Shown here in pieces: positions 5,571 through 62,048 of a stretch of 64,000 nt of DNA. The notes beneath the pieces are model-generated. The model saw only the letters and a list, made by a program, of their open reading frames with translations. It made no database searches and had not been told where the DNA came from. Positions within the stretch are counted from its first letter, which is position 1; each line of letters starts with the position of its first letter. This DNA comes from Pseudoalteromonas sp. DL-6 (GTDB lineage Bacteria; Pseudomonadota; Gammaproteobacteria; Enterobacterales; Alteromonadaceae): NCBI RefSeq assembly GCF_004328665.1, contig NZ_CP019770.1:558001-622000 (forward strand). The letters are read 5' to 3'. A program made the translations under genes and the position numbers.

Positions 5571-8500
5571 TTAGTTTAAGTTAATTACTTGGTTTGTTGT
5601 TATCAGCTGCATAAACGAGGTTTTGTGCAGTGGCTTTGAAAACAAATAGCCTTGGCCATAATCACAACCAGCCTCAAGTAATAAATCCATTTGTAATTTT
5701 GTTTCTATGCCTTCGGCAATTACTTTTAAACCAAGCTGATGAGCCATCATAATAATTGCTTCACATAAGGCGAGCTCTTGGCTATCTTTTTGAATATTAT
5801 CAACAAAGCGTTTATCGATTTTTAGGTAGTCGGTATCCATTTCTTGTAAGTAAGCAAGCGATGAGTAACCCGTACCAAAATCATCGAGTGCCAATTGCAT
5901 CCCTGATTTAACCAAGGCTTTTAAGCGGCTTTGGGTCAGCTCTTCAGGATTAACCATCAAGCCTTCAGTAATTTCTGCCACAATACTCGATGCAGGTAAA
6001 TTTGCTGCCTCAAGCATGTCGTACCAATCGTCTATGCCGCTGTCTGTGGCTGCCAACTGCACCGGCGATACGTTAATACTGATTTGAAATTCATCTTTAA
6101 TATGCTTTTTAATGTCGTTGAGTGTTTGTAGTGCCTCAGCAAATACAAATTGACCAAGCGCATTGATTTGTCTGGTTTCCTCGGCTAGGGGAATAAAGTC
6201 AGCGGGGCTGATCAGGCCTTTTTCTGGGTGCTGCCAACGAATAAGTCCCTCAGCTTTATGAATATGTAAATCATCAAGCGATACAATAGGCTGGTAATAT
6301 AACTCAAACTGCTCTAGCTCTATGGCTGAGCGAAGCTCTTTGAGCAACTGCATTCTTGCATTTGCATCTTCACGCATATCATGTGAGAAAAATTCAAAGT
6401 CATTTCGGCCGCTATTTTTTGCCTTATACATAGCTTGGTCAGCAGCTTTAAGCAGTTGCTCTGGGTTTTGGCCATCATCTGGCGCGCAGGCAATACCAAT
6501 ACTGGCACTTATATACACTTTTTCATCTTCAATAAAAATAGTCGAAGCAAGGCTAAGTAGCAGTGATTTTGCTATTTTTTTGATATTATCGCTACCGCGT
6601 AAGTCACTAAATACAATAACAAATTCATCGCCACCAATACGTGCTACAAAGTCAGCCTCTTTGGCTGTTTGCACAATTCGCTCAGATACTAATTTAAGTA
6701 ATCTATCGCCATAATGATGGCCTAACGTATCATTAATATCTTTAAAGTGATCAATATCTAACAGCATAATGACCAGTTTTTGGTCGTGGTTGTTTACGCT
6801 CGTAAAGCGTTTATTTAACCGCTCTTTTAGTTCTAGTCGATTAGGTAAGTCGGTTAAATGATCAAAATGAGCTTGTCGCCAAATTAGCTCGTCAGCTTGT
6901 TTTTTCTCGGTTAGATCAGTAAAAATAGCAATACGGCTAGTTGGGGCTTTATTTTTATCGTAAATAGTATCTATGGTTAACCATTCAACATACAGCTCGC
7001 CATTTTTACGACGATTGGTTATTTCACCTTGCCAGCGGCCAGTTTTATTTATTGACTGCCACATGTAATCATAAAACTCTTTATCGTGTTTACCCGATGA
7101 TAAAATACCCACCGTTTTATTGAGTACTTCTTTTCGAGAATACAAAGTTGTTTCACAAAATGCAGGGTTCACATCATAAATAACGCCATTTTCATCTGTG
7201 ATTGCCATACCTTCACTGCTGTTGTTGTAAACTAATGACGCTAAATGCAAAGACTCTTGATTCTGCTTTCGTTGCGTGATGTTACTAATAACAATTATAA
7301 ACTCATCCACTTTTTTCATTGGGCTGATTTTAGCTTCATAAAACTGATTGTCTTGTTTATGTTCAAGCTCAACAGTGACAGGAGCGCTCAGGGTTGTTAA
7401 GTACTCTTCTACTTGTTTTAAATTAGCACTAGAGAATAAGCATGATAACTTTTTAGGCGGTGTTGAATGGCTATAATTTAACGATTTAATACGTCCACCG
7501 GTATCAAGTATATTGCCATTGGCATCTACACGTAAAAAAGCATCGGGTAGCGCATTAAGCAAGCTATTAAGCTCGTCATGTTTATGTTTAAGGCATGCTT
7601 CAGCTGTTAAGCGAGTTTCGGCCATATATTTAAAACGATGATAGAGTCTATTTAGCTCAGGACTATTGGGCTGCTCGTCGTCATGAGGCATATTACCGGC
7701 TGCTAAGCGGTTAACGGCCTGCGTTAAACTTTTAATCGGGTTTAAGATGCTTTTATTAACTAATCGTCTAGCCAATACGGCTAAAAGCAAAATGGTCATT
7801 AAAAATCCCAAAACCATTTTTACAAAGTTAATATCTATTTGCTCAAGTGTTTCATCTATTGGTTGAGTAATATAAATAGAGAGCTTATTGTTATTGCCAT
7901 CACGATAGAGTGTTGTTTGATGGAAAACTCTTCGGATACCATCTTTTCCTTTAAAAATAACACCAGCTTGCAAGTTATGCGCTAAATCGAACTTTTCCAA
8001 TTTGTTGCCTAGTCTATCGGCTGAAAAAGGGTAGTTAGCTAAAATACTACCGTTAGAGTCAGTAATGACAGCTCTGATTTCTGTCGATAAATTTAAAGTA
8101 TTAAGTGCCGAGCTCCACCAGTCTAAAGCGATTACGGTCACAATAACGCCTTCAATATCATTATTTTCATTTAAGATAGGGTAAGCAAAGTTAATACTTT
8201 GCGCTTTGAGGCTGCGATCGTGCTGGAAATGGCCAATACTGAACTCTTTACTGGCGATCGCGTTTTTAAAATAGGGACGGTCACTAATGTTAATATTAGT
8301 GTCGCTACTTTTTGAGGTACAAATTAGGTCACCATTTTTATTTACTATACCAATATTCGCGATATTACCATTGAGTGCCTTAACATCTAAAAAATACGCA
8401 GGACAAGTAGAGGGTAAAGATTGAATGTTTTTCTGTTTTTTTGCTAAAAACTCAGTAACTTTTTTGACATCATCAATCATGCTTTGTTGTTTGATAATTA

Positions 8501-60431: not shown

Positions 60432-60510
60432 AAATTAGAAACCTTATTCAAGGTTTTGTCGCGCTGGCGACGGCAGCCAAAGAGGGACTGCCGCTGACCC
60501 CTCTCTGGAC
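60432..60510 (+). repeat. 79-bp direct repeat, left copy, flanking the abi cassette
   Basis: It matches 61970-62048 at 71 of 79 positions in the same orientation. Internally it has a GTCGC-GCTG-GCGAC hairpin and a GGCAG...CTGCC hairpin. With the right copy it brackets 1459 bp holding the Abi_2 gene and its upstream small RNA. Confidence 0.9.
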
Positions 60511-60572
60511 ACTCTCAGCGCACCCGAGCATCACGCTCAATCCTTCAAACCACAATTGATGTGAACGTAAAC

Positions 60573-60627
60573 GGCGAAGATAGGCCATCCATGGCCTAGT
60601 TTCGCCTTATCGCGCATCCATGCGCGA
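60573..60627. repeat. Twin hairpins with identical CATCCATG tips
   Basis: Hairpin 1 (60573-60606): GGCGAA and TAGGCCAT arms, CC loop, ATGGCCTA and TTCGCC, with a 2x2 internal loop. Hairpin 2 (60610-60627): TCGCGCAT-CC-ATGCGCGA, perfect 8 bp. Only three bases separate them. They look like a REP doublet; no T-tract follows, so they are not ordinary terminators. Confidence 0.85.
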
Positions 60628-60725
60628 CATTACTCATCAATTGCTTATTTTCAGGGCGTGATGACGGGGGAGGGTGTTAAACGTGAGATTGGTGTTTTGT
60701 CTTGGCAAAATGCAAGATCTGAGAT

Positions 60726-60758
60726 AATAGATTTTTAATTTTTTATTAAAAACCTATT
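60726..60758 (-). terminator. AT-rich hairpin at the end of the abi gene
   Basis: AATAGATTTTTAAT pairs with ATTAAAAACCTATT over 13 of 14 positions with a T5 loop. It overlaps the stop codon of the Abi_2 gene on the minus strand. It is weak thermodynamically and has no G+C-rich base, so termination is only possible. Confidence 0.4.
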
Positions 60759-61785
60759 AGATAAAGAATTCGTGCTCTAGCCAATTATCTGGGAAGCCCA
60801 TAGGAAACAACGGAATTTCAGGATGCAATAAGATCAAAGCTTTCACTTTGTTATTCCATTGACTATCAGGGCTAATCTGTTTCATTAAATATGCTAACAT
60901 TAGTATGATCATGTAGATACGTCGATTTGGTTGAATTTTGCTAGGTTCTAATCTACCAGGTAATTGCCAAATGACACCACGGGGTACTTTAGGTTGGATA
61001 GCTAATTCTCTATTCCAGAGACGGCTATGGTGCGCGCAACAATTTCTTATGAAATTTAAAGTATGTAGCCAACTTTCAAATACTTCTTGAGGCAACTCAA
61101 ACCTTTTTGCAATTTCTTTTCTATCTATATCTTTTGCAAGCCCTCTATAAAGATGTGAAATACTCCCAAAGGTTAGCTCTTCAGCCATCGCCCACCCAGG
61201 CATCAATCTAGGCTTATCATATGAATAATGGTAAAAGCGGGGATAGTTCTCTCTAACCCTTTTTTCTATACGTTCTTGCTTTATTTCATCATTAGCTGAG
61301 TTACGTTCAATTTTCTTAATATCTCTTTGGAGAGCATTAAATTCTTTTGTTTGCTTATCCTCAACTTCTTTTAGTAAGCGTTTATGCTGGTAAGTTCTTT
61401 TGAATAGACTTTCATTTAAGTACCAGTGAGAGCCACTGCACTCATCAGTCTCAGTTTGATACTTTATGCCCATCACATTATTAAGAGTGGCTCTGATGGC
61501 TACTTCAACTCTCTCTACAGCATCCATAATAAGAAGCCTTAGCTCCCTATCAAAAGCATACAGATCAACTATTTTTTTAAACTCAACCCCGTCTTTGAAT
61601 TGGTGTTCAATTTCTTGTCTTTCTTTAGGTTGTTGGAAAGGTCGCATATACGCACTAAGGCGAAAAAAGCTGATTACTTCTAAGTATTTTTCTGCTCGGT
61701 CAGGCTGTAGAATATGTAGACCGCGACTTTGTAAAAGGGTTATTTGTTCGTTTACAGTGATGGCTGGTTTATTGAATTGAGTCAT
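60757..61785 (-). CDS. Abi_2 (AbiD/AbiF-type) HEPN abortive infection protein
   Basis: Predicted phage-defence protein, 342 residues. The Abi_2 N-terminal pattern is visible: QITLLQSRGLHI, AEKYLEVISFFRLSAYMRPF and LYAFDRELRLLIMDAVERVE. The C-terminal half has the HEPN ribonuclease-type motif R247-NCCAH252 followed by HSRLWNRE. A charged coiled insertion lies around residues 140-185. Active members are thought to cleave RNA on phage infection, stopping phage spread by halting the host; that is family inference. AAGG precedes the ATG. Just upstream is a small-RNA-like transcription unit, and 79-bp repeats flank the locus. Confidence 0.85.
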   Translation of the reverse strand: MTQFNKPAITVNEQITLLQSRGLHILQPDRAEKYLEVISFFRLSAYMRPFQQPKERQEIEHQFKDGVEFKKIVDLYAFDRELRLLIMDAVERVEVAIRATLNNVMGIKYQTETDECSGSHWYLNESLFKRTYQHKRLLKEVEDKQTKEFNALQRDIKKIERNSANDEIKQERIEKRVRENYPRFYHYSYDKPRLMPGWAMAEELTFGSISHLYRGLAKDIDRKEIAKRFELPQEVFESWLHTLNFIRNCCAHHSRLWNRELAIQPKVPRGVIWQLPGRLEPSKIQPNRRIYMIILMLAYLMKQISPDSQWNNKVKALILLHPEIPLFPMGFPDNWLEHEFFI

Positions 61786-61818
61786 TATGCCTTCTTAATA
61801 TTAGTAATAAGCAGACAT

Positions 61819-61870
61819 AAAAAAGCCCGCGCAATTTGAGCATTCAAAAGAGGCTTGGCGGGCGTGTTGT
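61819..61870 (-). ncRNA. Candidate small RNA upstream of the Abi_2 gene
   Basis: A complete promoter-to-terminator unit of about 50 nt on the same strand as the abi gene. The transcript would end in GCCCGC...GCGGGC followed by six T (a perfect intrinsic terminator). The large loop contains a second stem TTTGA/TCAAA. I recall that structured RNAs upstream of abiF/Abi_2 genes have been described, which this matches in position; sequence match was not tested. A role as an RNA antitoxin or sensor of the HEPN protein is inference. The 5' end is estimated from the -10 box. Confidence 0.6.
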
Positions 61871-61875
61871 TGACA

Positions 61876-61904
61876 ATACTAGCCATAAGAGATCGCTCCG
61901 TCAA
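61876..61904 (-). promoter_or_regulatory. Promoter of the candidate abi small RNA
   Basis: On the minus strand TTGACG (61904-61899), a 17-bp spacer and TAGTAT (61881-61876). Both hexamers are near consensus with ideal spacing. The predicted start is about 45 nt ahead of the terminator and about 85 nt ahead of the abi start codon. Confidence 0.65.
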
Positions 61905-61969
61905 TATATTTTAATAAAAACACGTTTTAGTAATTAACTCATAAAGAGTAAAAACAAACAAGGTATCTA

Positions 61970-62048
61970 TAATTAAAAACCTTATTCAAGATTTTGTCGC
62001 GCTGGCGACAGCAGTCAAAGAGGGACTGCCGCTGGCCGGTCTCTGGAC
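61970..62048 (+). repeat. 79-bp direct repeat, right copy
   Basis: Same orientation as 60432-60510, 71/79 identical. In this copy the second hairpin is GCAGTC/GACTGC, where a change on one arm (C to T) restores a pair lost in the left copy, so structure seems maintained. Confidence 0.9.

Follow-up and report, generated by a model that had tools for sequence, protein, structure and literature searches.

A probable AbiF toxin-antitoxin locus in Pseudoalteromonas sp. DL-6 and orphan abiF RNAs in phages as candidate decoys

Features of the abiF locus

The window analysed in this work is a stretch of 64,000 nucleotides from Pseudoalteromonas sp. DL-6 (contig NZ_CP019770.1, positions 558,001 to 622,000). 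An abiF gene lies on its minus strand between two direct repeats, and an RNA of the abiF family lies directly upstream of the gene. The features of the locus are listed below.

61971..62048, minus strand: upstream copy of the 78-nt direct repeat, 91% identical to the downstream copy
61876..61904, minus strand: promoter-like site TTGACG-17-TAGTAT, presumed start of the RNA and of the read-through mRNA
61825..61862, minus strand: abiF RNA motif RF03085 (43.9 bits, cut-off 37)
61819..61824, minus strand: T6 run directly 3' of the hairpin, a terminator-like structure read from the sequence
61786..61819, minus strand: predicted read-through leader hairpin, in which AAGGCAU pairs with AUGUCU and so takes up the ribosome binding site
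60757..61785, minus strand: abiF gene, 342 aa, Abi_2/HEPN toxin by profile and structure-database matches
61030..61047, minus strand: HEPN catalytic motif R247-N-C-C-A-H252, from the homologue alignment
60513..60680, minus strand: TwoAYGGAY element RF01731, inside a repeat of about 289 nt (60434-60722)
60433..60510, minus strand: downstream copy of the 78-nt direct repeat, the tail of the TwoAYGGAY element of about 289 nt

The earlier note on this DNA had named a promoter, a terminator, a ribosome binding site and an R-x4-H HEPN motif, and all four were located on the minus strand. TTGACG (61904-61899) and TAGTAT (61881-61876) are separated by a 17-nt spacer, both arms of GCCCGC...GCGGGC are present and are followed by T6 at 61824-61819, the ribosome binding site AAGGCATAATG lies upstream of the Abi_2 ORF, and the ORF contains R247-N-C-C-A-H252.

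The ORF matches the Pfam Abi_2 profile (1.1e-49) and the PADLOC AbiD model (1.2e-66), and the NCBIfam profile search of the ORF gave no match. The protein also matches PDB 8vz6 over two stretches (1.3e-45), which makes it a sequence relative of a solved AbiF. The 8vz6 entry is given as the PbAbiF-ncRNA structure (PMC12737573), for which one RNA per monomer is reported (PMC12737573, PMC12373285). The two proteins are homologous; that of the window comes from another lineage and carries an insertion that separates the two stretches of similarity. R247 is conserved in 118 and H252 in 119 of the 120 homologues. The locus has several features of an AbiF system, namely an Abi_2 protein with a HEPN R-x4-H motif that is related to a solved AbiF, and an abiF RNA directly upstream on the same strand. 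The AbiF genes of four plasmid loci (L119, L120, L121, and L122) are surrounded by type I restriction-modification genes.

The covariance search that the earlier note had proposed identified the upstream RNA as abiF RNA, above the Rfam cut-off, with the model matched over its whole length (E 2.9e-06 for 2 kb). RNAs related to it have already been reported upstream of abiF-type genes, as the earlier note states, and form Rfam family RF03085. The RNA has an outer stem CCCGCC/G-GCGGG, an inner stem AGC/GCU and the core GCCAAGCCU...GCUCAAAU, and the window contains one copy of the motif. The fold of 61819-61868 was predicted at -15.5 kcal/mol (z -2.32). The hairpin is missing from a simple terminator scan because its loop is too long for that scan. 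T6 directly follows the motif in 12 of the 12 leaders examined, and two AbiF-linked RNAs (L123 and L125) have no T6 after the motif. The promoter-like site has 9 of the 12 consensus bases; the promoter scan returned nine promoter-like sites versus 6.6 +/- 2.6 in shuffles, so that the window site alone is no better than chance. A similar hexamer pair was seen by eye, unscored, in the corresponding position ahead of the genes of close homologues.

The read-through leader after the T run has a predicted fold of -23.6 kcal/mol (z -2.94) in which the ribosome binding site can be covered. Only L095 and L099 were predicted to form a similarly clear fold, and the other leaders fold otherwise or weakly; the leader taken for L097 was cut at a wrong position. 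None of the leaders compared carries two-sided changes that support this hairpin, and masking of the ribosome binding site by the leader hairpin is offered as a suggestion only. A TGYCTG-like stretch (61805-61819 in the window) was seen by eye after the T run in most AbiF leaders from L095 to L122, and it is kept even in leaders where pairing with the ribosome binding site is impossible.

The TwoAYGGAY element downstream of the gene and the flanking 78-nt repeats, on which the earlier note is silent, are the setting of the locus and stand outside the toxin-antitoxin unit. The survey of the genus found TwoAYGGAY in 73 of 108 genomes and the 78-nt tail in 62 of 108. Thirteen of the 20 loci that were chosen for good repeat matches contain gcvP, and the cargo beside gcvP differs among the nine loci listed. 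PADLOC models were matched by seven of ten cargo proteins chosen by eye. Both the window and L080 have a lone 78-nt tail upstream of the cargo and the full element plus tail downstream, and in both the homology starts at the same query base. The window site has the appearance of a variable defence locus that carries a repeat element, and the arrangement of tail, cargo, and element plus tail may be a candidate cassette. The variable locus with TwoAYGGAY repeats beside gcvP was observed in the window, L067, L068, L070, L071, L080, L083, and L084. The defence-like cargo models at this locus are LmuA/LmuB, Ankyrin, AbiD, and PDC-M18A. L069 (genome G103, 6278-7652) exhibits tandem units of TwoAYGGAY plus tail at a spacing of about 410 bp, and no ORF of at least 90 aa is listed inside.

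Conservation and proposed mechanism of the AbiF system

RF03085 was matched in 3 of the 10 loci of the first homologue set (L095 with 37.0 bits, L096 with 27.9, and L097 with 51.1) and in 11 of the 13 loci of the second set (L099 with 53.6 bits, L125 with 37.6, and nine others with 27 to 37). These matches are often below the Rfam cut-off, with four loci of both sets at 37 bits or above. The novelty that the earlier note expected in this lineage is therefore small. The RF03085 scans of L103 and L124 returned no abiF RNA. Nine of the 108 genomes in the genus survey have Abi_2, and abiF RNA was found only in the genome of the window, one of these two scans having been run with stricter filters. 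The RF03085 scans of seven Abi_2 loci from the same genus (L087-L093) likewise returned no abiF RNA; therefore, not every Abi_2 gene works with such an RNA.

The alignment of 17 AbiF-linked RNAs, picked by the analyst for a visible motif, keeps all 151 of its 151 pair cells, and three of the nine pairs are changed on both sides. These changes are the covariation that the earlier note had proposed to look for among homologues. One shuffle control was not cleanly passed: 35 of 500 shuffles also gave three such pairs, and additional pair types did not exceed their number in shuffles. The core of the motif is fixed among the homologues and the loop is freely variable.

AbiF-RCd22 of the C. difficile prophage phi027 (PMC12373285) resembles the window locus in its Abi_2/HEPN toxin, its upstream abiF RNA with a terminator (a putative one in the window) between the two, its RNxxAH-type motif, and the same order of parts. 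It differs in having two motif copies and a separate terminator; in the window, the outer stem of the single copy continues directly into the U run. The single hairpin of the window with U6 seems to be antitoxin and terminator at once. The C. difficile study reports that the AbiF toxin stops growth and requires R202/H207 for toxicity, that RCd22 binds the toxin and neutralises it both in cis and in trans, and that most RCd22/AbiF transcripts end before the toxin gene, with the terminator limiting toxin mRNA (PMC12373285). The earlier note had suggested that the RNA neutralises the nuclease or that the terminator gates abi expression. Both suggestions gain support from family membership and both have been demonstrated experimentally for RCd22/AbiF (PMC12373285), from which they would extend to the window.

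The gene, the RNA family, the arrangement, the catalytic motif and the covariation are established for the window, and we consider it very likely that the locus encodes a type III-like AbiF toxin-antitoxin system that follows the mechanism proposed here. Toxicity and neutralisation would carry over from the published relatives; for the strain itself, we infer the transcript ends, the termination, the masking of the ribosome site and the phage trigger. From one promoter, a short transcript would arise and form the abiF hairpin. Most transcription would stop at the U6 after the hairpin, so that antitoxin RNA would be abundant and toxin mRNA scarce. The abiF RNA would bind the AbiF HEPN dimer and block its ribonuclease, and when read-through does occur, which would be rare, a second hairpin in the mRNA may mask the ribosome binding site. 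Infection would upset the ratio of RNA to toxin, and free AbiF would then cut RNA and growth would stop. Tandem-repeat antitoxin RNA is described as a key feature of type III toxin-antitoxin systems (PMC12373285); the window has one motif copy only and is therefore called type III-like rather than strict type III. The window holds a compact AbiF system and offers a simple model in which the setting of such systems could be studied.

It is very improbable that the hairpin is only a terminator or attenuator of abiF that binds no protein. Its position with T6 directly before the gene would suit such a role, but the core GCCAAGCCU...GCUCAAAU is conserved far beyond the needs of a terminator and the same core is found in phages without the gene, and RCd22 is active in trans and is purified together with AbiF (PMC12373285). 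The suggestion of the earlier note that the RNA guides the nuclease, which would make AbiF RNA-guided like its relative Cas13, was rejected as scarcely credible, because, although AbiF is described as the ancestor of Cas13, the homologues have a fixed core, a freely variable loop and no spacer-like segment, and the accounts of AbiF in the same two papers describe a toxin with an RNA antitoxin and give no RNA-targeting specificity (PMC12737573, PMC12948488).

Orphan abiF RNAs in phages

The window shows no difference from the RF03085 family, while orphan abiF RNAs in phages differ by the absence of the toxin gene. The IMG/VR database was searched with a pattern made of the core and the 5' arm, which gave 84 stretches, 80 of which were taken as loci (L133-L212); a scrambled-pattern control gave 16 stretches. 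An AbiF-like ORF was detected with our own profile in 9 of the 80 loci. A loose count of closing stems with at least four of five pairs separated the true sites (71/80) poorly from the control sites (8/16) and was replaced by a covariance model, R1, that was built only from the 17 AbiF-linked RNAs. R1 was run on 69 of the 80 loci; the nine with an AbiF-like ORF were left out, as were L182 and L158, the contig of the latter ending after the motif. Matches were obtained in 60 of these 69 virus contigs without an AbiF ORF at E 1e-3 or better, near-duplicates included, and none of the 16 control loci at E 1 or better. The contigs of L136 and L200 end 50 nt or less from the motif and a toxin gene was possibly cut off. 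The scan with two other 5' arms gave 69 further loci (L244-L312), none with an AbiF-like ORF by our own profile; 11 near-duplicates were dropped, and R1 matched 18 of the remaining 58 at 2e-4 or better.

A 46-nt orphan query matched 77 named phage records (E up to 10), Mycobacterium phages accounting for 53, and the weakest of these matches may be due to chance. Two further queries matched 3 and 11 records, with several of the latter weak and probably due to chance. Ten named phages (L233-L242) were taken further: Acinetobacter phage Acj61, Aeromonas phages PZL-Ah8 and T7-Ah, Mycobacterium phages Thibault and Lolly9, Salicola phage CGphi29, Synechococcus phages S-SZBM1 and S-CREM1, Roseobacter phage CRP-143, and Arthrobacter phage Mimi. 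Nine of the ten pass the Rfam cut-off (45.3 to 58.0 bits) and Mimi is below it (33.0 bits). R1 matched five of the ten at 1e-3 or better and the other five at 0.0026 to 0.033. Orphan RNAs without the toxin occur in phages of hosts from several phyla.

The Pfam Abi_2 profile was searched against 77 whole orphan records (50 contigs, 17 further contigs and the ten named phages) and matched 0 of 77, many of which are fragments, while the positive controls, run with the latter 27 records, were matched in 5 of 5. On this count, orphan abiF RNAs are solitary defence RNAs without their effector. A protein search of viral contigs with AbiF, a method that reaches close relatives only, found nothing. Phage records with AbiF-like proteins at 1e-10 are from Streptococcus (44), Bacteriophage sp. 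(6), Clostridioides (3), Lactococcus (3), Listeria (1), and Lactobacillus (1) phages, and these hosts are absent among the listed hosts of the orphan query, bar one unnamed 'Bacteriophage'. AbiF-like proteins are encoded on plasmids of Acinetobacter, Arthrobacter, Rhizobium, and Synechococcus, which are genera with phages that match the orphan query.

The 3' arm was absent from the search pattern and nevertheless varies in step with the 5' arm, as tallied over distinct orphan sites. The 5' arm CCGCC is joined by the 3' arm GCGG at 40 of 58 sites, GTGG at 3, GCAG at 0, and none at 15. CCACC is joined by GTGG at 8 of 22, GCGG at 0, GCAG at 1, and none at 13. CTGCC is joined by GCAG at 2 of 31, GCGG at 3, GTGG at 3 (possibly by G-U pairing), and none at 23. 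Many sites with none of these 3' arms resemble chance matches inside genes. The alignment of 62 distinct orphan rows, which was fitted to the model and hence leans towards it, has 99.4% of its cells paired and 16 two-sided cell changes versus 0.9 in shuffles. Seven outer-stem pairs with the core kept are exhibited by Acj61 (ACCAGCC/GGCUGGU), T7-Ah (GCCCGAC/GUCGGGC), Thibault (CCCCUCC/GGGAGGGG), Lolly9 (CCUACCC/GGGUAGGG), and, with one bulge, CRP-143. S-CREM1 and S-SZBM1 have five outer-stem pairs each and Mimi has four. PZL-Ah8 and CGphi29 have the variant core GCACACTTTGGCGGG, the same as in the AbiF-linked RNA of L122.

A tRNA on the same strand lies within 60 nt of 11 of the 70 distinct orphans, versus 0.52 expected when position and strand are randomised within the same contigs (maximum 4 in 20000 simulations). 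The orphan RNAs of S-CREM1, S-SZBM1, Mimi, and Lolly9 likewise adjoin a tRNA. The stem in T7-Ah starts 14 nt past a promoter-like repeat that has 17 copies in this phage (three mismatches or fewer) versus 0.1 by chance. A -10-like sequence is present at 25 of the 70 orphans, an uncontrolled count that carries no evidential weight.

Possible roles of the orphan RNAs

The toxin-RNA pair at the window is already known as a kind, and the new result is the orphan phage RNAs, which lie outside the window. We consider it rather probable that these RNAs, carried by phages of many hosts and in some cases located in tRNA clusters or behind putative phage promoters, are decoys that bind the host AbiF and switch off abortive-infection defence, an RNA-based counter-defence against the ancestor of Cas13. 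The phages keep the part that marks the own RNA of AbiF and no toxin is present. The simplest reading proposed here is that they would produce antitoxin RNA on its own and thereby keep AbiF in check, much as CRISPR repeats are copied by Racrs. Racrs, the solitary CRISPR repeats of phages, are likewise lone defence-system RNAs without the effector (PMC10651486). They differ in that the target of the orphan RNAs would be AbiF, and the Racr survey, as described, covers all CRISPR types except VI (PMC10651486).

It is possible, though we are doubtful, that the orphans are instead remnants of AbiF systems that have been lost, or that phages have reused the hairpins to process RNA, to terminate transcription or to control their own genes in cis. 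The motif sits in the leader of a structural gene in T7-Ah and PZL-Ah8, a T run follows the stem in 33 of the 70 distinct orphans, and several orphans adjoin tRNAs, where processing is common. A relic would be expected to decay, yet the core is retained and changes in the outer stem are compensated; hairpins for processing or termination would need no AbiF core; and the genes next to the orphan RNAs vary between phages.

A region of the lactococcal phage sk1 reportedly protects phage 712 from AbiF, going by the title of a paper of Rince et al. from 2000. The whole sk1 genome was scanned with Rfam to E 10 and with R1 and contains no match to the abiF motif, although a divergent RNA may be present there. 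This result does not support the decoy reading and favours relics or reuse.

The literature search found no reading of phage abiF RNAs as decoys of AbiF; the Zilberzwige-Tal and Rfam source papers, outside its reach, may say more. One account mentions the copy of S-CREM1 and three phage genomes listed in Rfam and gives no role (PMC9964418), and the role is called unconfirmed elsewhere (PMC12197685). If the orphan RNAs are decoys, phage counter-defence by borrowed antitoxin RNA would be common, phage tRNA clusters would not be limited to tRNAs, and AbiF must exert natural pressure on phages, something that the C. difficile study describes as challenging to demonstrate (PMC12373285).

Tandem pairs of abiF motifs were also observed in two orphan virus contigs (L175, 6654-6803, and L183, 11783-11932), comparable to the two copies of RCd22.
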